This document shows, in pieces, positions 12,713-19,152 of a stretch of 35,394 nucleotides of DNA. How positions within the stretch are numbered: position 1 is the first letter of the stretch; each line of letters starts with the position of its first letter. The notes under the pieces are model-generated. The model saw only the letters and a program-made list of their open reading frames with translations, was not told the DNA's origin and did no database searches. The DNA lies in NCBI GenBank assembly GCA_025357635.1, contig JANXOV010000108.1:1-35394 (forward strand), given 5' to 3'. This stretch comes from Pseudomonadota bacterium (lineage in GTDB: Bacteria; Pseudomonadota; Gammaproteobacteria; Steroidobacterales; Steroidobacteraceae). A program made the position numbers and the translations under genes.

Positions 12713-13462
12713 TCAGCCCATGTGCAGACCACCGTTCAAGGAAAAGTCCGCGCCGGTCGCAAAAGCCGATTGCTCGGAGGCCAGCCAGGCCACAATGGAG
12801 GCGATCTCATCGGGTTCACCGAGTCGCTTGACCGGGATCATTCCGACGATCTGCTCCAGCACTTCCGGGCGTACCGCCCGCACCATGTCAGTGCCGATGT
12901 ACCCTGGTGACACGGTGTTGACCGTGACGCCGCGCGCGGCCACTTCCTGCGCCAGCGCCATGGAGAAGCCATGAATGCCCGCCTTGGCGGTCGAATAATT
13001 GGTTTGCCCGAACTGGCCTCTTTGTCCATTGACCGAGGAGATATTGATGATCCGTCCCCAGCGCCGGTCGAGCATGCCCTCGATCACCTGCTTGGTGACG
13101 TTGAAAAGAGAGTTCAGATTCGTGTTGATGACAGCATCCCAGTCCTCCTTGCTCATCTTTCGAAACGTCCCGTCCCGGGTGATGCCGGCGTTGTTCACGA
13201 GGATGTCGATCTCGCCGATCTCCTGCCGAACCTTGGCGAAGGCTGCCTGAGTCGAATCCCAGTCGGCCACATTGCCGCTGGAGGCATGAACTTCGCAGCC
13301 CGCCGCGCTCATTTCCGCAAGCCACGTGGCCTTGCGAGTGGAGCCCGGCCCGCAGCCCGCCACGACGATATGCCCCTCCCGGCACAGTCGCTTGCTGATG
13401 GCAGTGCCAATCCCACCCATGCCGCCTGTCACGTAGGCGATTCGTCTTTTCTTCGTTTCCAT
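12713..13462 (-). CDS. phaB: Acetoacetyl-CoA reductase
   Basis: 249-residue NADPH-dependent short-chain dehydrogenase that reduces acetoacetyl-CoA to (R)-3-hydroxybutyryl-CoA, the monomer for PHB. It starts METKKRRIAYVTGGMGGIG (cofactor-binding Gly motif), followed by NNAG and the catalytic serine in SSVNGQRGQFGQTNYSTAKAG, where Tyr and Lys complete the site. The GQFGQTNYS stretch and VSPGYIGTDMV are typical of PhaB rather than FabG. The ATG at 13462 follows a GGGGG ribosome site; upstream in-frame codons overlap phaC. It lies 19 bases after phaC, which supports co-transcription. Confidence 0.94.
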   Translation of the reverse strand: METKKRRIAYVTGGMGGIGTAISKRLCREGHIVVAGCGPGSTRKATWLAEMSAAGCEVHASSGNVADWDSTQAAFAKVRQEIGEIDILVNNAGITRDGTFRKMSKEDWDAVINTNLNSLFNVTKQVIEGMLDRRWGRIINISSVNGQRGQFGQTNYSTAKAGIHGFSMALAQEVAARGVTVNTVSPGYIGTDMVRAVRPEVLEQIVGMIPVKRLGEPDEIASIVAWLASEQSAFATGADFSLNGGLHMG

Positions 13463-13481
13463 GCAACCCCCGGCAAGTGAA

Positions 13482-15209
13482 CTATCGATGCAAAACGTAT
13501 TCCCCGGGTGCATCGCCCAGGATGCCGTAGCCGGCCGGCGCATTGCCCACACTGGGCAGCGCGGCATCGGAGCGGCTCGAATGCGTGGCCAGCCATTGCT
13601 GCCACCAAGGCCACCAGGAGCCCTGATGCGCTGTCGATCGCTCCAGCCACTGCTCGGGGCTCAACTGCGTCTGCGCGTCGGTCCAGGTCAGCTCCCGGAA
13701 GCGCCGCTTGGGGTGGACCGGACCACTGACGATGCCGGCATTGTGACCGCCGCTGGTCAACAAAAAAGTAAAATCGCTGGATCGCGTCAGCGCGCGAGTC
13801 TTGAACACCGAACGCCACGGGGCGACATGGTCGGTTTCCGTGCCGACCACGACGATGGGCGCCTCGATCCTCGACAGGTCGATCTTGCCGCCGCAGACCA
13901 TGAACTCACCGCGCGCAAGGTCGTTTTGCAGATACAGATGCTTCAGGTAGTCCGTGTGCATGCGCCAGGGCATGCGCGTGCCGTCCGCATTCCAGGCCAT
14001 TAGGTCGTTGACGCTATCGCGCTTGCCCTTGACGTAGTTATTGATGGCCGGGGCCCAGAGCAAGTCGTTCGAACGCAACAGCGCAAACGCCGCCGTCATC
14101 TTGTCGCTGCTCAGCACACCGGCCTTTTGCATCACGGCTTCCAGCATCGCCAGCTGACTGGGGCTGATGAACAATGACAGCTCGCCCGGTTCACTGAAAT
14201 CCGTCTGCGCAGCCAACAGCGTGACGGAGGCAAGTCGATCGTCGGAATCTTTCGCCAGATGCGCCGCTGCGATGCTCAGCAAGGTGCCGCCGATGCAATA
14301 GCCGACGCTGTGAACGCGGCTGTTCGGCACGATGCAGGTGACCGCGTCCAATGCCTTTAAAAAACCGCGCTGCACATAATCATCCATGCCCAGATTGCGG
14401 TCGGCGGCGTTCGGGTTTTTCCAGGAAATCATGAATACCGTGTGGCCTTTTTCCACCAGGTAGCGCACCAGCGAATTGGCCGGGGAGAGATCCAGGATGT
14501 AGTACTTCATGATCCATGCGGGCGCGATCAGAATCGGCTCTGCATGAACCTGCGGGGTTTGCGCCTGGTATTGAAGCAATTCCATCAGCTCATTGCGGAA
14601 CACGACCTTGCCCGGCGTAATAGCCAGCTGATCGCCCACTTTGAAGTTTTCCACGCCTGCCGGCGGCTTGTGGTTGAGCGTGCGGTCAAGATCCTCCAGC
14701 CAGTGTTTAAATCCGCGCACCAGATTCTGCCCGGACTGCGCGCGCGTGGACTCCAGCAATTCGGGATTGGAGGCAAGATGATTCGCGGGATTCAGTGCAT
14801 CCATGGTCTGCTTGCCCATGAACTGCATGAGCTGTGCAGATCGAGGCGCAATGCCCGGCACGCCGGAGAGCGCATCGTTCATCACCGTCGAGAAGTTCAA
14901 AAAGCTGCGCGCGTAAACATTGAACGGCCACTGATTCCAGCCTGAACCGGCGAAGCGTTTGTCGTCCGTGGCGGCCGGCAGCGCCTGACCCGAGGCCGCC
15001 TGCATGGCGAACGAAAAGTTATCGATCATCGCCTTGGCGGAGGCCTGCGCGATGGAGTTCTGCTTTTCCGGACCGCTGGACACGTTCAGATACCAGTCCC
15101 ACCAGGCCTGGATGTAGTCATCCGGCGCGATGCCGCCCGTTACAGCGGCAAGCTGGGTCCGCAACGCCTGCATGATGTTGTCATTGGAAGGGGGAAGGCT
15201 GGTCGCCAT
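13482..15209 (-). CDS. phaC: Class I poly(3-hydroxyalkanoate) synthase
   Basis: 575-residue PHA polymerase acting at the granule surface on (R)-3-hydroxyacyl-CoA. The PhaC N-terminal domain (WNQWPFNVYARSFLN) precedes an alpha/beta-hydrolase core. The lipase-like box is GYCIGG with nucleophile C305, and the other triad residues are D460 (GTETDHVAPW) and H489 (TSGGHNAGIVSGP). Size and the single-subunit layout fit class I. The start at ATG 15209 is favoured by GAGG eight bases upstream; ATG 15233 would add eight residues without a visible ribosome site. Downstream come phaB and a HAD phosphatase; upstream lies a strong terminator after the phasin gene. A separate class III synthase is encoded at 17399-19152. 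Confidence 0.95.
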   Translation of the reverse strand: MATSLPPSNDNIMQALRTQLAAVTGGIAPDDYIQAWWDWYLNVSSGPEKQNSIAQASAKAMIDNFSFAMQAASGQALPAATDDKRFAGSGWNQWPFNVYARSFLNFSTVMNDALSGVPGIAPRSAQLMQFMGKQTMDALNPANHLASNPELLESTRAQSGQNLVRGFKHWLEDLDRTLNHKPPAGVENFKVGDQLAITPGKVVFRNELMELLQYQAQTPQVHAEPILIAPAWIMKYYILDLSPANSLVRYLVEKGHTVFMISWKNPNAADRNLGMDDYVQRGFLKALDAVTCIVPNSRVHSVGYCIGGTLLSIAAAHLAKDSDDRLASVTLLAAQTDFSEPGELSLFISPSQLAMLEAVMQKAGVLSSDKMTAAFALLRSNDLLWAPAINNYVKGKRDSVNDLMAWNADGTRMPWRMHTDYLKHLYLQNDLARGEFMVCGGKIDLSRIEAPIVVVGTETDHVAPWRSVFKTRALTRSSDFTFLLTSGGHNAGIVSGPVHPKRRFRELTWTDAQTQLSPEQWLERSTAHQGSWWPWWQQWLATHSSRSDAALPSVGNAPAGYGILGDAPGEYVLHR

Positions 15210-15267
15210 CTGCAAAACCTCGGGGATTTCCATGAATGCATGATCGCACGAGCGGCCCGGAGCACCC

Positions 15268-15321
15268 AAAAAAAAGGGAGCGAGAAAACTCGCTCCCTGG
15301 ATGGTTCACGAAAAGTGAACC
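15268..15321 (-). terminator. Tandem-hairpin intrinsic terminator between phasin and phaC
   Basis: Read on the minus strand, a 7-bp hairpin (arms 15315-15321 and 15303-15309, GGTTCAC/GTGAACC) is followed by a perfect 9-bp hairpin. The second has arms 15289-15297 and 15276-15284 (GGGAGCGAG/CTCGCTCCC) and a four-base loop. It runs into eight T residues (15275-15268). The second hairpin plus T-tract is a textbook Rho-independent terminator. It sits between the phasin stop (15337) and the phaC start (15209), so it should set the phasin/phaC transcript ratio. Confidence 0.9.
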
Positions 15322-15336
15322 GGGGGTTTGAATTGA

Positions 15337-15696
15337 TTAGGCAGCCTTCTTCACGCTTTCGGCGACCTTGGTGGTCGTGGCGTCGATCCACTGGGTAACC
15401 ACACCCTGGGTCTGTGTCGCGATCTGGCTGAATTCCTCAGCGCGGGTGCGCAACTTGTCGCCCAAGCGCGTGTTCAGCTCGGTCTGCTGACCCACGAGGT
15501 CGGCTGCCGATTTCGTGTGAACTGCGGCGCCGGCCTGAGCCAGTGACCAATCCAGATAGTCGCCGGCGACCGCGAACTGATAGCGGGCGAGGCGCTCGAA
15601 GGTCTTGAAACCTTCCTGCTGGGCACGCAGCACGGGTGCAAACGCGTCGCGATAGGTATTGAACAAGTTGCTGAAATCAAACGTTCGGTCAGTCAT
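15337..15696 (-). CDS. phaP: Phasin family protein
   Basis: 119-residue amphipathic helical protein that coats PHA granules. The N-terminal FDFSNLFNTYRDAFAPVLRAQQEGFK (in parts) and LARYQFAVAGDYLDWSLAQ match the phasin domain, and the C-terminus is Ala/Lys-rich (VAESVKKAA). The ATG at 15696 is chosen for the CAGGAG ribosome site five bases upstream; earlier in-frame codons lie in the promoter. It has its own promoter with a putative PhaR site and its own terminator, which fits the high, PHA-dependent expression known for phasins. Confidence 0.9.
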   Translation of the reverse strand: MTDRTFDFSNLFNTYRDAFAPVLRAQQEGFKTFERLARYQFAVAGDYLDWSLAQAGAAVHTKSAADLVGQQTELNTRLGDKLRTRAEEFSQIATQTQGVVTQWIDATTTKVAESVKKAA

Positions 15697-15730
15697 GCTG
15701 GCTCCTGGGTAGTCGTTGTTACTGAGGAGC

Positions 15731-15759
15731 AGTATACCCAAGAAAAGTATGCAGTGCAA
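15731..15759 (-). promoter_or_regulatory. Phasin gene promoter
   Basis: On the minus strand, TTGCAC (15759-15754) and TATACT (15736-15731) are spaced by exactly 17 bases, a good sigma-70 arrangement. The predicted start of transcription is near 15724, leaving a ~28-base leader that contains the CAGGAG site. The -35 hexamer lies inside the operator-like dyad at 15750-15758, so a bound repressor would block polymerase. DNA upstream (to ~15890) is unusually AT-rich for this window. Confidence 0.7.
15750..15758. promoter_or_regulatory. Putative PhaR operator, site 1 (phasin -35)
   Basis: TGC-AGT-GCA, a TGC-R-N-Y-GCA dyad. On the minus strand it reads TGCACTGCA followed by TACTTTT, the same flank as site 3. 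It covers the phasin -35 element. Assigned to PhaR because the repressor gene is adjacent and PhaR proteins are known to bind TGC/GCA dyads at phaP promoters. Confidence 0.6.
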
Positions 15760-15869
15760 AACAATTTTTATGGTGTAAGTAGAACATCCAAAAAATTTAT
15801 AACTTACTGTTTTTATTGTCTAAAAAAGATATCTGGTCAGAAAATAGCTGCGAACTACGTGTTTTTTAT

Positions 15870-15878
15870 TGCGCCGCA
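15870..15878. promoter_or_regulatory. Putative PhaR operator, site 2
   Basis: TGC-GCC-GCA within TTTTATTGCGCCGCATA (15863 onward). This matches site 4 in 16 of 17 positions. It lies 120 bases upstream of site 1, just past the end of the reductase gene at 15899, so it may support looping or cooperative binding at the phasin promoter. Confidence 0.5.
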
Positions 15879-15898
15879 TACGGTTTTTACCGTCTGCT

Positions 15899-16660
15899 TC
15901 AGAGTCTTAGCCCGCCATCCAGATCGATGCACCGGCCCGTGAAAAAGTCGTTTTCAATGATGAACTGGGCAGCCTGAGCGATTTCCTCCGGCTCCCCCAG
16001 TCGCCCCAGCGGCACCGGCGCGACGACCTTTTCCAGCACCTCGGGTCTCATCGTGGCCAGAATGTCCGTGCGCGTAAACCCGGGCGCAATGGCGCCGACG
16101 CGGATGCCATGTCGGGCCAATTCTTTGGCCCAGGTAACGGTCATGGCCGCCACGCCGGCCTTGGCTGCTGTGTAATTCGTCTGTCCGAGATTGCCATGCC
16201 GGGAAATGCTGGAAATATTGACGATGACGCCGCCATTGGCGAGTTTGACCATGCGCTCAGCCGATTCACGCGTACACAGGAACACGCCGGTGAGATTCAC
16301 GTTGATCACGGCTTGCCACTGGTCCAGGGTCATCTTGCCAACCACTGCGCCGTCCTTGACCTTCAGGAGCATGGCGTCTTTCACAATGCCGGCATTGTTG
16401 ACCAGAATGTCGAGCCGGCCGAAATCCGCGGCCACCTGGTCGAACGTGGCGCTGACCTGATTTTCTGCGGAAACATCCACGATGTAGCTCTTGACGGAAA
16501 CTCCGTGAGACTCGCACAGGGCGCGACTGGTCTCCAGATCGGTCGCGTTCAGGTCCAGCAACGCGATGTTGGCTCCATGCCGCGCAAAGCGCTGCGCCAG
16601 CGCTCGTCCGATTCCACGTCCCGCGCCGGTGATTACGGCTGTCTTGGATTGCAATTGCAT
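15899..16660 (-). CDS. Short-chain dehydrogenase, FabG/PhaB-like 3-oxoacyl reductase
   Basis: 253-residue NAD(P)-dependent reductase. It shows the cofactor motif TGAGRGIG (about residues 11-18), NNAG, the catalytic Ser in NISSISRHGNLGQ, and Tyr/Lys in NYTAAKAG. It differs from the PhaB at 12713 by an insert near LKVKDGAVVGKMTLD and ends TGRCIDLDGGLRL, a form common among FabG-like reductases. It could supply (R)-3-hydroxyacyl-CoA from other precursors, or work as a second acetoacetyl-CoA reductase; specificity cannot be read from sequence. It lies between phaR and the phasin gene on the same strand. Confidence 0.88.
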   Translation of the reverse strand: MQLQSKTAVITGAGRGIGRALAQRFARHGANIALLDLNATDLETSRALCESHGVSVKSYIVDVSAENQVSATFDQVAADFGRLDILVNNAGIVKDAMLLKVKDGAVVGKMTLDQWQAVINVNLTGVFLCTRESAERMVKLANGGVIVNISSISRHGNLGQTNYTAAKAGVAAMTVTWAKELARHGIRVGAIAPGFTRTDILATMRPEVLEKVVAPVPLGRLGEPEEIAQAAQFIIENDFFTGRCIDLDGGLRL

Positions 16661-16678
16661 TGATTTAAAACTCGATGG

Positions 16679-16697
16679 AAAAAAAAGGACTGCGTCC
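16679..16697 (-). terminator. Weak terminator-like element between phaR and the reductase gene
   Basis: On the minus strand a short GGAC-GCA-GTCC stem (16697-16687) is followed directly by eight T residues (16686-16679). The stem is only four base pairs, so this is at best a partial terminator or attenuator downstream of phaR. Confidence 0.3.
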
Positions 16698-16708
16698 GCG
16701 CAACAGGC

Positions 16709-17239
16709 CTATTGGAGCTTGTCGTCGGCGGGCGGATCGGCAAGTGGCGGTTCACTGGATTTGCCCGGTCCGGCGGCTTGGGAACCGGTGGGATTCTTGG
16801 GCGCGAAAGCTGACAGCATCGATGATTGCAGCTTGGTCCATTGCTCCATGTTCTGCCGGGCGAACTCGGCGATCGGCGCCATGGGTCCTTCGAGCGCCTT
16901 GGCCATTTCAGCGCGCATCGTCTGCTGCTGGCGTACCAGCGTGCCCACGCTTTGCTCCATGTAGCGCGTCAGCATTTCCTGAACCGGATTGCCGTAAAAA
17001 CGGATGATGGCCTCGAGCAAATCAGTGCTCAGCACCGGTGTGCCAAACTGCTCCTGTTCGGAAATGACCTGCAGCAAGACGGCGCGGGTCAGGTCGGCGC
17101 CGGACTTGTCGTCCACGATGCGCACCTTCTCGCCGCTGACAATCAGCTTGCGGATGTCTTCCAGCGTCACATGCCGGCTTCCGGTGGAATCGTACAGGCG
17201 CCGATTGGCATATTTCTTGATGACTCGTTCTGTCGGCAT
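16709..17239 (-). CDS. phaR: Polyhydroxyalkanoate synthesis repressor PhaR
   Basis: 176-residue regulator that in other proteobacteria binds both DNA and PHA granules, derepressing phasin genes when polymer appears. The N-terminal DNA-binding domain is clear: VIKKYANRRLYDSTGSRHV, then VDDKSGADLTRAVLLQVISEQE in parts. The PHB-accumulation domain follows (LEAIIRFYGNPVQEML). The C-terminus is Pro/Ala-rich and low complexity. I use the ATG at 17239, which gives the family N-terminus; an ATG at 17272 would add 11 residues. Four operator-like dyads in the two flanking intergenic regions suggest control of phaP, phaR itself and possibly phaEC. Confidence 0.93.
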   Translation of the reverse strand: MPTERVIKKYANRRLYDSTGSRHVTLEDIRKLIVSGEKVRIVDDKSGADLTRAVLLQVISEQEQFGTPVLSTDLLEAIIRFYGNPVQEMLTRYMEQSVGTLVRQQQTMRAEMAKALEGPMAPIAEFARQNMEQWTKLQSSMLSAFAPKNPTGSQAAGPGKSSEPPLADPPADDKLQ

Positions 17240-17289
17240 AGCAGTAGACTTGACCCTGAGGTTGAATGGCATTAGGGCACCAGCGCGGC

Positions 17290-17319
17290 AGCATAGCCGC
17301 AAAAGTATGCGCCGCACAA
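17290..17319 (-). promoter_or_regulatory. Candidate phaR promoter
   Basis: On the minus strand, TTGTGC (17319-17314) and TATGCT (17295-17290) are 18 bases apart. The layout copies the phasin promoter: operator dyad over the -35, then TACTTTT, then the -10. The predicted transcription start is near 17283, upstream of both possible phaR start codons. Confidence 0.45.
17308..17316. promoter_or_regulatory. Putative PhaR operator, site 3 (phaR promoter)
   Basis: TGC-GCC-GCA, identical to site 2, preceded on the plus strand by AAAAGTA exactly as at site 1 (AAAAGTATGC shared). It overlaps the candidate phaR -35, consistent with autoregulation. Confidence 0.55.
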
Positions 17320-17362
17320 TAGGACAATCCGCGTTCCTTAAGATCAAATGCGAGCATTTTAT

Positions 17363-17371
17363 TGCGACGCA
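17363..17371. promoter_or_regulatory. Putative PhaR operator, site 4 (upstream of phaE)
   Basis: TGC-GAC-GCA within TTTTATTGCGACGCATA, the near-copy of site 2. It directly follows a weak -10-like TTTTAT (17357-17362, with TTCCTT 17 bases upstream) and lies 27 bases before the phaE ATG, so PhaR bound here could repress phaEC. Confidence 0.5.
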
Positions 17372-17398
17372 TAACACGTTTTGGAGGCATTGAGCGTT

Positions 17399-18097
17399 AT
17401 GACCAATTCAAACGACAAACCGCGCGAGGACCTCGAAGGGGAACTGCATCGCCGCTATTCGCAGGCGTTTGAGCAGTACGCCAATCTGACGCGCGCGTTC
17501 ATGAGCGGCGGGCCCGGCGCCGCCACGCCGGCCGCGCCGCCTGCGGATTTCACCAAGACCTTGAGTGACTGGTTTCAGAATTCTCTGGCCGGCCCGGGCA
17601 CGGATGTGTCGCAGTTCTGGAACCGCTTCACGGGGGCCCAAAGTACGGCGCCCGCTGCGGCCGTTGCATCGCCGCTGGATGCGCTGCTGACCAAGCAGGA
17701 GGCCATTGCGAGGCGCCTGTTCGAACTGGCCGGTCAGTGCCAGCGCCTACAGAGCCAGTTGTCAGCGCATTGGGCCGGCGTCGGACAGTCTGCAGCGTCC
17801 CACTTTTCCGCTGCCATGCCCGGCGCAGCGGCGCAATCACCGCAGCAGATCTACGCGGCGTGGATCGAGAATGCGGAGCAGGCCTACAAACAAGCGGCGC
17901 AGAGCGCCGAGTACGTACAGTTGCTGGCGGCACTCACCAACGCTGCGCACGCGTTCAAGGCGGAGCAGGGCGCGCTGGTGGAGTTGTGGGCAAAGTTTTT
18001 CGATCAGCCGACGCGCACCGAACTGGATGCGTTGAACACGCAGGTGCGGGAGTTGCGCGAGCAGGTGCGTCAGCTGCGCGCGGGCTTGCGCAGTTGA
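17399..18097 (+). CDS. phaE: Class III PHA synthase subunit PhaE
   Basis: 232-residue non-catalytic partner of class III PhaC. The diagnostic region is IYAAWIENAEQAYKQ followed by EYVQLLAALTNA (about 151-185). The C-terminus is a coiled coil, FFDQPTRTELDALNTQV then RELREQVRQLRAG. The N-terminal part is Ala/Pro-rich. It is shorter than the ~350-residue PhaE of purple sulfur bacteria. The ATG at 17399 has GGAGG at 17383-17387, a somewhat long 11-base spacing; a TTG at 17381 is the only alternative. The stop TGA overlaps the TTG start of phaC. Confidence 0.88.
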   Translation: MTNSNDKPREDLEGELHRRYSQAFEQYANLTRAFMSGGPGAATPAAPPADFTKTLSDWFQNSLAGPGTDVSQFWNRFTGAQSTAPAAAVASPLDALLTKQEAIARRLFELAGQCQRLQSQLSAHWAGVGQSAASHFSAAMPGAAAQSPQQIYAAWIENAEQAYKQAAQSAEYVQLLAALTNAAHAFKAEQGALVELWAKFFDQPTRTELDALNTQVRELREQVRQLRAGLRS

Positions 18098-19152
18098 GCG
18101 ACCGGCTGCCGACCGTTGTTGCCGGCATGCCTGACGCGGCGGAGTTGCTGCCAAGCCTGCGTGCGAGTGCGGAAAGGATTTTCGCCACGCACCAGGATGG
18201 CTGCAGCGCTCGCACAGCCGTGTGGCGCGAGGGCAAACGCGTGCTGTATCGCTACGAGGCCTCGCACGCGCGGCACCTGCGCACGCCGCTGTTGATTTGC
18301 TACGCACTCGTCAATCGCCCGTACATGATGGACCTGCAGCCGAATCGATCCTTGATACGCGATCTGCTGGCCGCGGGGATCGACGTCTATCTGATCGACT
18401 GGGGGTATCCGGACGCCGCTGATCGCCTGACGGATATTGATGACTATGTGAACGCCACGCTGGATGACTGCGTCGAGTTCCTCAAAGGCGAGTGCGCGGT
18501 TCCAGCTGTCGATCTGCTGGGCGTTTGCCAGGGCGGTACGCTTGCCCTGTGCTACGCGGCCCTGCACCCGGAAAACGTGAAGAATCTGATCACGATGGTT
18601 ACACCGGTGGATTTCAAGACGCCGGACAACGTGTTGTCGATGTGGGCGCAGGGGGTCGACGTCGAACTCCTGACGCGCTCAGGCAATGTGTCGGGGGAGT
18701 TTCTCAACGCGTTGTTCCTGTCGCTGATGCCGTTCCGGCTCACGCAGCAAAAATATCTGTCTCTTGCCGATTTTGCAAATGACGACTCAGCGCTGGAGCA
18801 TTTCATGCGCATGGAGCACTGGATCTCCGACAGTCCCGATCAGGCCGCTCGCGCCTGCGGCGAGTTCATCACCTGGTTTTTTAAGGAAAACAGACTGATC
18901 GAGGGTGGATTGAGGCTGGGCGGGCGTGAGGTGCGCTTAAGCGACATACACTGCCCGATACTCAATGCCTACGCTCTGAAAGACCATCTCGTTCCGCCCG
19001 GCGCAAGCCGGGCATTGCGCTCGCTCACGGCCAGCACGGATTACAGTGAACTGTGCGTGGACGTAGGGCACATCGGCATGTACGTGAGCAGCAAGGCGAA
19101 ACGCGAAGTTGCCCCGGCGATCGCGCAATGGCTTGCGGCGCGAGATGCGTGA
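18094..19152 (+). CDS. phaC: Class III PHA synthase catalytic subunit PhaC
   Basis: 352-residue alpha/beta-hydrolase that polymerises (R)-3-hydroxyacyl-CoA together with PhaE. The family block RTPLLICYALVNRPYMMDLQ (in parts) precedes YLIDWGYPDAADR. The lipase-like box is GVCQGG with nucleophile C145, then D297 (LKDHLVPP) and H326 (VGHIGMYVS). TMVTPVDFKTPDN and the ~350-residue length are diagnostic of class III. I start at TTG 18094, which overlaps the phaE stop as TTGA. ATG 18127 would remove 11 residues, and an upstream open extension lies inside phaE in another frame. It is convergent with acnA. Confidence 0.93.
   Translation: MSDRLPTVVAGMPDAAELLPSLRASAERIFATHQDGCSARTAVWREGKRVLYRYEASHARHLRTPLLICYALVNRPYMMDLQPNRSLIRDLLAAGIDVYLIDWGYPDAADRLTDIDDYVNATLDDCVEFLKGECAVPAVDLLGVCQGGTLALCYAALHPENVKNLITMVTPVDFKTPDNVLSMWAQGVDVELLTRSGNVSGEFLNALFLSLMPFRLTQQKYLSLADFANDDSALEHFMRMEHWISDSPDQAARACGEFITWFFKENRLIEGGLRLGGREVRLSDIHCPILNAYALKDHLVPPGASRALRSLTASTDYSELCVDVGHIGMYVSSKAKREVAPAIAQWLAARDA

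Follow-up and report, generated by a model that had tools for sequence, protein, structure and literature searches.

Published PhaR boxes and their relation to the locus

In the parts of the published reports considered here, free PhaR represses the phasin gene and goes to the granules once PHA has been made (PMC6201568, PMC12849132, PMC12542648, PMC3206438). The box of Ralstonia eutropha H16 is YTKNTGCRNYGCANMAR; the phaP1 sites lie by the -35 element and the transcription start, and PhaR represses phaP1 and activates phaP3 (PMC12849132). The box of Bradyrhizobium diazoefficiens USDA110, TGCRNYGCASMA, was derived from DNase I footprints at phaP1 and phaP4, and PhaR also shifts the phaR promoter (PMC6201568); a looser box has been defined for the same species (PMC10888616). 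The AniA/PhaR box of Sinorhizobium meliloti is a YGCRNYGCR palindrome with AT-rich arms, present at phaP1 and phaP2 in two copies each, which flank the -35 element. Gel shifts were abolished when these palindromes were removed or mutated, and autoregulation of phaR was weak (PMC12542648). For PhbF of Herbaspirillum seropedicae, the box TGNTGCN3GCAA and a footprint on the regulator's own promoter are described, and phaP1 and phbF fusions were lowered in E. coli (PMC3206438).

We analysed a 35,394-nt stretch of DNA from a member of the Steroidobacteraceae, hereafter called the window. A first-pass annotation had stated that PhaR proteins are known to bind TGC/GCA dyads and had proposed four such dyads in the window as a probable PhaR operator set. 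The first statement agrees with the literature covered: boxes with a TGC-N3-GCA centre have been established in other bacteria by footprinting, gel shifts or reporter assays. As far as the covered parts of these reports go, the core, the AT-rich arms, the doubling at phasin promoters and the sites at phaR are all already published. Outside the core, the four sites fit the published consensuses in part, and those consensuses, as given in the parts covered, differ among species.

Judged against the covered parts of the R. eutropha work on phaP1 and phaP3, the locus is alike in the TGCRNYGCA centre, in having several sites per phasin gene, in their placement by the -35 element and the transcription start and, as predicted here, in repression of the phasin gene. 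It differs in that the inner TKNTGCRNYGCANMA is matched at none of the four sites, the near operator here overlaps the -35 region, and phaP3 is activated there. Only the site at 17308 fully fits the B. diazoefficiens box as published in the part covered (read by eye), and the bacterial class differs. The likeness to the S. meliloti boxes, as described in the covered part, extends to the palindrome centre, the AT-rich arms and the two copies per phasin promoter; the copies there flank the -35 element, whereas of the two in the window one overlaps this element and the second is placed 120 bp upstream. The PhbF box, likewise taken from part of its report, has the same TGC-N3-GCA centre but different flanking bases. 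Herbaspirillum belongs to another class of bacteria than the organism of the window. The operator studies compared are those on Ralstonia, Bradyrhizobium, Sinorhizobium and Herbaspirillum, and a phaR paper on Xanthomonas reportedly exists. In this partial coverage of the literature we noticed no publication that deals with PhaR boxes of Steroidobacteraceae or of class III synthase promoters, and we do not claim that there is none.

Organization of the PHA locus

The genes and sites of the locus are listed in Table 1. Judged from its sequence, the gene beside the four dyads is phaR, as both domains are present and the TIGR01848 score exceeds the cut-off. The phasin gene holds the only Phasin_2 match in the genome to which the window belongs (hereafter, the own genome), and a profile search of that genome for the PHB depolymerase family PF06850 gave no match. 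The terminator-like stem-loop behind the phasin gene was found once, compared with 0.2 in shuffles. Class I-like and class III PHA synthases are both encoded in the one locus (12713-19152). Related loci were present in eight named records, all metagenome-assembled, which are labelled Steroidobacteraceae (two), Gammaproteobacteria (two), Pseudomonadota (three) and Proteobacteria (one).

Table 1. Features of the PHA locus in the window and, in the last five lines, genes divergent from phaR in relatives
Feature	Position	Strand	Remarks
phaB-type reductase gene	12713-13474	-	leftmost gene of the PHA locus
class I-like PHA synthase gene	13482-15233	-	549.9 bits, under the TIGR01838 cut-off of 622.65
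terminator-like stem-loop	15275-15298	-	3' of the phasin gene, ahead of the class I-like synthase gene; 10-pair stem and T tail
phasin gene	15337-15696	-	TIGR01841, 31.3 bits (cut-off 30.2); PF09361
phasin promoter (predicted)	15731-15759	-	TTGCAC (15759-15754), 17 nt, TATACT (15736-15731); -35 region overlaps operator 1
operator 1, phasin-proximal predicted PhaR box	15750-15758	-	exact TGCRNYGCA; TGCACTGCA on the phasin strand
operator 2, far phasin-side predicted PhaR box	15870-15878	.	exact TGCRNYGCA; starts 182 nt ahead of the phasin ATG
FabG-type short-chain reductase gene	15899-16660	-	between phaR and the phasin gene; NF006072, 382.7 bits (cut-off 298)
phaR, PHA synthesis repressor (PHB_acc_N and PHB_acc)	16709-17239	-	TIGR01848, 135.8 bits (cut-off 109.45); PF07879 and PF05233
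phaR promoter (possible)	17290-17319	-	TTGTGC (17319-17314), 18 nt, TATGCT (17295-17290); overlaps operator 3
operator 3, phaR-proximal predicted PhaR box	17308-17316	-	exact TGCRNYGCA; TGCGGCGCA on the phaR strand
operator 4, predicted PhaR box on the phaE side	17363-17371	.	exact TGCRNYGCA; 27 nt ahead of the phaE ATG
phaE, class III synthase subunit	17399-18097	+	ATG 17399; divergent from phaR; PF09712 over cut-off, TIGR01834 under cut-off
class III phaC	18097-19152	+	TIGR01836, 420.9 bits (cut-off 365.3); frame as searched, start approximate
DDAH-type gene divergent from phaR	L036:313-1266		PF19420
DDAH-type gene divergent from phaR	L037:346-1335		PF19420
DDAH-type gene divergent from phaR	L039:309-1253		PF19420
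DDAH-type gene divergent from phaR	L045:2221-3174		PF19420
DDAH-type gene divergent from phaR	L048:252-1223		PF19420

Four dyads in two intergenic regions

The dyads at 15750, 15870, 17308 and 17363 are exact TGCRNYGCA matches and lie where the first-pass annotation had placed them. Its two further descriptions of the set are equally accurate. The flanks agree in pairs, 15750 and 17308 having AAAAGTATGC in common and 15870 and 17363 TTTTATTGCGnCGCATA, and each of two AT-rich gaps holds two sites (202 and 161 bp, with GC contents of 37.6% and 49.7% compared with 61.8% for the window). All four match the longer TATGCRNYGCA, those at 15750 and 17308 on the plus strand and those at 15870 and 17363 on the minus strand, so that the two orientations are opposed within each gap.

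The bare TGCRNYGCA is not enriched across the window, with seven copies found against a shuffle mean of 9.13, and GTATGCRNYGCANAA with up to three mismatches, which includes all four sites, is not above chance there either (27 found, 33 expected). The case for the four dyads stands on their clustering, AT-rich arms and conservation, and not on the frequency of the core in the window. Four of the seven copies fall within the 363 bp of intergenic DNA that make up the two gaps. When both gaps were shuffled with dinucleotides preserved, none of 30,000 shuffles reached four copies and two reached three (mean 0.076). Among the 63 other half-sites in the same dyad form, only one yields a dyad in the two gaps, and only once. 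The 16 flanking bases contain 11-13 A or T at the four sites, compared with 3-7 at the other three copies in the window.

Conservation in related genomes

A PhaR search gave matches in 95 of 120 genomes of the family. Upstream regions of at most 300 nt were taken from PhaR loci of the pha-locus type (60 fetched matches and L064), of which 58 were usable for phaR and 39 for phasin. Excluded from these counts were the own locus (L033), L034 and L065-L070 (taken as duplicates because their contigs are equally long), ten paralog loci, matches starting past residue 5 (PhaR) or residue 7 (phasin), and loci with less than 150 nt upstream. The phaR count also leaves aside G046, a match of the pha-locus type, and the fragment G041:C1.

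The dyads, whose absence from related genomes had been named as grounds for giving up the proposal, are conserved. At least one strict TGCRNYGCA is present upstream of the phasin gene in 39 of 39 relatives and upstream of phaR in 38 of 58, the other 20 having none; at least two are present in 27 of 39 and 21 of 58, respectively. The best of the 63 other half-sites reached 4/39 upstream of phasin and 15/58 upstream of phaR, the latter being CGC, which is one base off TGC.

At the level of single sites, the near phasin site is present in all 20 loci with the gene order of the window (own locus included). The far phasin site is found in strict form in 10 of the 19 relatives and with at most one mismatch in 17 (reversed-sequence control, 2/19), at distances of 161 to 199 nt from the ATG. 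L063, the closest relative with a full locus (84% for PhaR), has no far phasin site even at one mismatch. The phaR-side site occurs in 18 of the 20 relatives that have the own layout of phaR and divergent gene, namely the 19 with the gene order of the window and L100. Helical phasing of the two phasin operators gave no clear multiple of 10.5, as they are spaced 120 bp apart here and 89-126 bp apart in those ten relatives of the own layout that have two strict sites.

Phasin genes were also collected by a PF09361 search, which matched 59 of 120 genomes and gave 69 genes, own included, five of them under the curated cut-off; many loci in this set are identical to those of the PhaR-locus set. The core lies within 330 nt upstream of the match for 50 of 53 phasin genes in genomes with a pha-locus PhaR, for 9 of 13 in genomes with only another or a partial PhaR, and for two of the remaining three. 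Because three phasin genes of the first group lack the box and nine of the second have it, the box is not exclusive to the pha-locus type of PhaR.

Promoter geometry

The sites at 15750 and 17308 had been placed on the -35 elements of the phasin and phaR promoters. Both do overlap -35 hexamers; the promoters are weak by consensus, and a consensus scan finds only that of phasin. Counted by eye, the phasin promoter TTGCAC-17-TATACT has 8/12 consensus matches and the possible phaR promoter TTGTGC-18-TATGCT 7/12. At the phasin site the scan returned an overlapping register, TTTGCA-18-TATACT (9/12), as one of two matches where shuffles give 0.7, and at the phaR site it returned no match, the promoter there being under the scan threshold. 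What supports these promoters is the conserved spacing between dyad and -10.

In every one of the 20 loci of the phaR-fabG-phasin order, own included, the near phasin site lies over the -35 region and is followed at +20 to +23 by a -10-like hexamer; with shuffled tails (2000 shuffles), such a hexamer occurs in a mean of 1.4 and a maximum of 8 of the 20. Behind the far phasin sites of these loci, a hexamer of this kind occurs at +20 to +23 in 1 of 11 cases and at +16 to +26 in 3 of 11. The position of the -10 tracks the -35 register: where G precedes the dyad, the best hexamer is at +20 (4/5), and where T precedes it, at +21 or +22 (14/14). TAC directly follows the near phasin dyad in all 20 loci. 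Of the 18 near phaR sites (own included), 11 are followed at +20 or +21 by a -10-like hexamer, and the other seven lack one. For operators 2 and 4 of the window, read on the phasin and phaE strands, no such hexamer is present at this distance.

Six loci with other gene orders (L050, L051, L055, L056, L074 and L075) carry two boxes 26-27 bp apart upstream of phasin, one ahead of a TATACT -10 and the other starting at the end of this TATACT.

Probable identity as PhaR operators and proposed mechanism

The sites, their conservation, the geometry of the phasin promoter and the adjoining PhaR gene are established. We consider it very probable that the PhaR encoded beside the four dyads has them as its operators. 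The PhaR-operator reading is supported by the conserved dyads, by the -10 geometry at all 20 near phasin sites, and by a core that equals that of the published PhaR boxes. The four sites are a fresh instance of an established kind of PhaR box, whose motif, targets and logic are already in print.

From other PhaR proteins we infer the binding itself, the sign of its effect and the release by PHA. By this analogy, PhaR would bind the four operators when PHA is absent. Because operators 1 and 3 overlap -35 regions, bound PhaR should exclude RNA polymerase from the phasin and phaR promoters, which would result in repression and autoregulation. The far partner of each near operator (operator 2 for phasin, and operator 4 across the phaR promoter) probably offers PhaR a second contact that makes repression stronger. 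In addition to this role, or in place of it, operator 4 may block the divergent class III synthase genes, since it adjoins their start. Once PHA granules form, PhaR would shift to their surface, releasing the genes.

The first-pass annotation had linked phasin, phaR and possibly the class III synthase to one repressor. The phasin and phaR sites are conserved, in agreement with the first two links, and the tie to the class III synthase is weaker and only a possible one. For specialists this is a useful confirmation with few surprises. It provides comparative evidence at the level of single bases for a PhaR regulon in a gammaproteobacterial family, and it makes testable the question of whether a granule-sensing repressor controls the class III synthase too, or only phasin and itself.

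Alternative readings

The target of operator 4 is the part of the reading with the closest competitor. Of 20 relatives, 18 have a far-side site of the operator 4 type in the gap that separates phaR from its divergent neighbour; in L041 its distance is odd. In 15 of the 20 this neighbour is phaE or has class III phaC next to it, and 14 of these have the far-side site, L041 being unclear. In the other five relatives, all of one genus, a hydrolase gene of the dimethylarginine dimethylhydrolase (DDAH) type (PF19420; Table 1) takes this position, and four of the five keep the site. Because the site is kept where a DDAH-type gene replaces phaE, the link to phaE is weaker and the site may serve phaR. 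We give a little less than an even chance to the reading that operator 4 is solely the far operator of phaR, parallel to operator 2 for phasin, and not a phaE operator. The site spacing agrees with it, being 131 bp in all four DDAH-type loci that keep the second site and often 131-133 bp in phaE loci too, and so does the divergent strand, which has no -10-like hexamer behind the far-side dyad apart from a weak one in L045. However, only 55 bp separate the two sites in the window and in the near relatives L063 and L100, where the second one is nevertheless close to the phaE start. Across the loci the far-side dyad starts 17-57 nt ahead of the first start codon of a divergent frame of more than 120 aa, as though it belonged to the divergent gene. 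Operator 4 may thus have this gene as its target, of whatever kind the gene is, or may be a second operator of phaR.

The remaining alternatives concern the regulator that reads the boxes. The own genome contains a second PhaR-family gene on contig C177 (L101:6017-6340), which encodes 107 aa with a shortened C-terminus; its DNA-binding domain is complete (PF07879, 98 bits), and PF05233 is matched at positions 1-37 of 40. Its neighbours, which we take to be dksA-, gluQ- and pnp-like genes, are not PHA genes as far as the ORFs can be read, and it has no upstream box. With the two PhaR types split by identity (about 48% and above against 47% and below) and not by tree, an upstream box occurs in 2 of 27 paralog regions with at least 150 nt, including the first ten (0/10), compared with 38 of 58 for the pha-locus type; three of the 30 regions collected were too short (67, 46 and 0 nt). 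The 29 paralogs of measurable length comprise seven of 106-135 aa and 22 of 144-173 aa. The retained DNA-binding domain, together with the frequent boxes upstream of phasins in genomes with only a paralog-type or partial PhaR (9/13, as above), means that the C177 paralog may read the same sites. That it reads them wholly or mainly is nevertheless unlikely, given the rarity of its own upstream box and its position away from the PHA genes. An improbable variant has the two PhaRs competing for the same operators, the full-length one leaving for the granules and the shortened one perhaps being granule-blind; if so, the shortened paralog would set the floor of repression, and the switch would depend on the ratio of both. 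The PHA locus could instead be bound by a regulator unrelated to PhaR that recognizes TGC/GCA dyads, such as a member of the Lrp/AsnC family; in the own genome a dyad of this form does precede a bkdA1-like gene that adjoins an Lrp/AsnC gene. We regard this reading as very unlikely, since throughout the family the box tracks the phasin and phaR genes, it equals the PhaR boxes in print, and no regulator besides PhaR is present among the genes scanned from phaB to class III phaC. Least credible of all is a common G+C-rich palindrome that happened to fall in two gaps, for which the chance-level frequency of TGCRNYGCA in the whole window would speak; it is contradicted by the gap shuffles, the conservation and the phasin promoter geometry. 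The locus-encoded PhaR is the regulator that we favour for the four dyads.

Search for further sites

A genome-wide motif search with the four-site pattern, which had been proposed as a check, recovered the four sites of the PHA locus and added no accepted member to the regulon. TATGCRNYGCA gave 33 matches in the own genome against 19 for the reversed control, and four of the 33 are those of the PHA locus. Loci were available for 26 of the other 29 and were inspected; only one site, on contig C69 (L018), combined a local GC content below 0.5 with a position outside the filtered ORFs. Also outside the filtered ORFs, and less AT-rich, were L005 (0.50), L020 (0.51), L009 (0.53), L008 (0.56), L031 (0.60) and L023 (0.62), the site in L009 lying in another reading frame.

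The C69 site (L018:1501-1511) is a box-like dyad between an Lrp/AsnC regulator gene and the next gene, which is presumably bkdA1, and it may be an Lrp site. It sits at the 5' end of the open frame of the neighbouring Lrp gene. The Lrp/bkdA1 dyad was kept out of the regulon: it occurs in 12 of 30 upstream regions (own included; 30 regions out of 82 genomes with a match), and many of these are larger TTGC...GCAA palindromes. B. diazoefficiens bkdA1 (blr6331) is tabulated, in the part of the report covered, among genes changed in a phaR mutant (PMC10888616).

Other patterns were searched as well. TKNTGCRNYGCANMA occurred at five places, equal to the control number, and none of them is in the PHA locus. 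WNTGCRNYGCATAC gave six matches in the own genome, three of them in the PHA locus (reversed control, two), and 55 matches in 16 of 19 relatives (reversed control, 18); it was absent from G108, G009 and G087 although PhaR is present there. Many of the 30 loci examined for WNTGCRNYGCATAC in relatives lie in open frames. In three genomes of one genus, TGCAGCGCATACTTTT is present at about position 1501 of L165, L177 and L178, within a less G+C-rich stretch, and the gene that follows it in L165 and L178 is one that we take to be ubiE.
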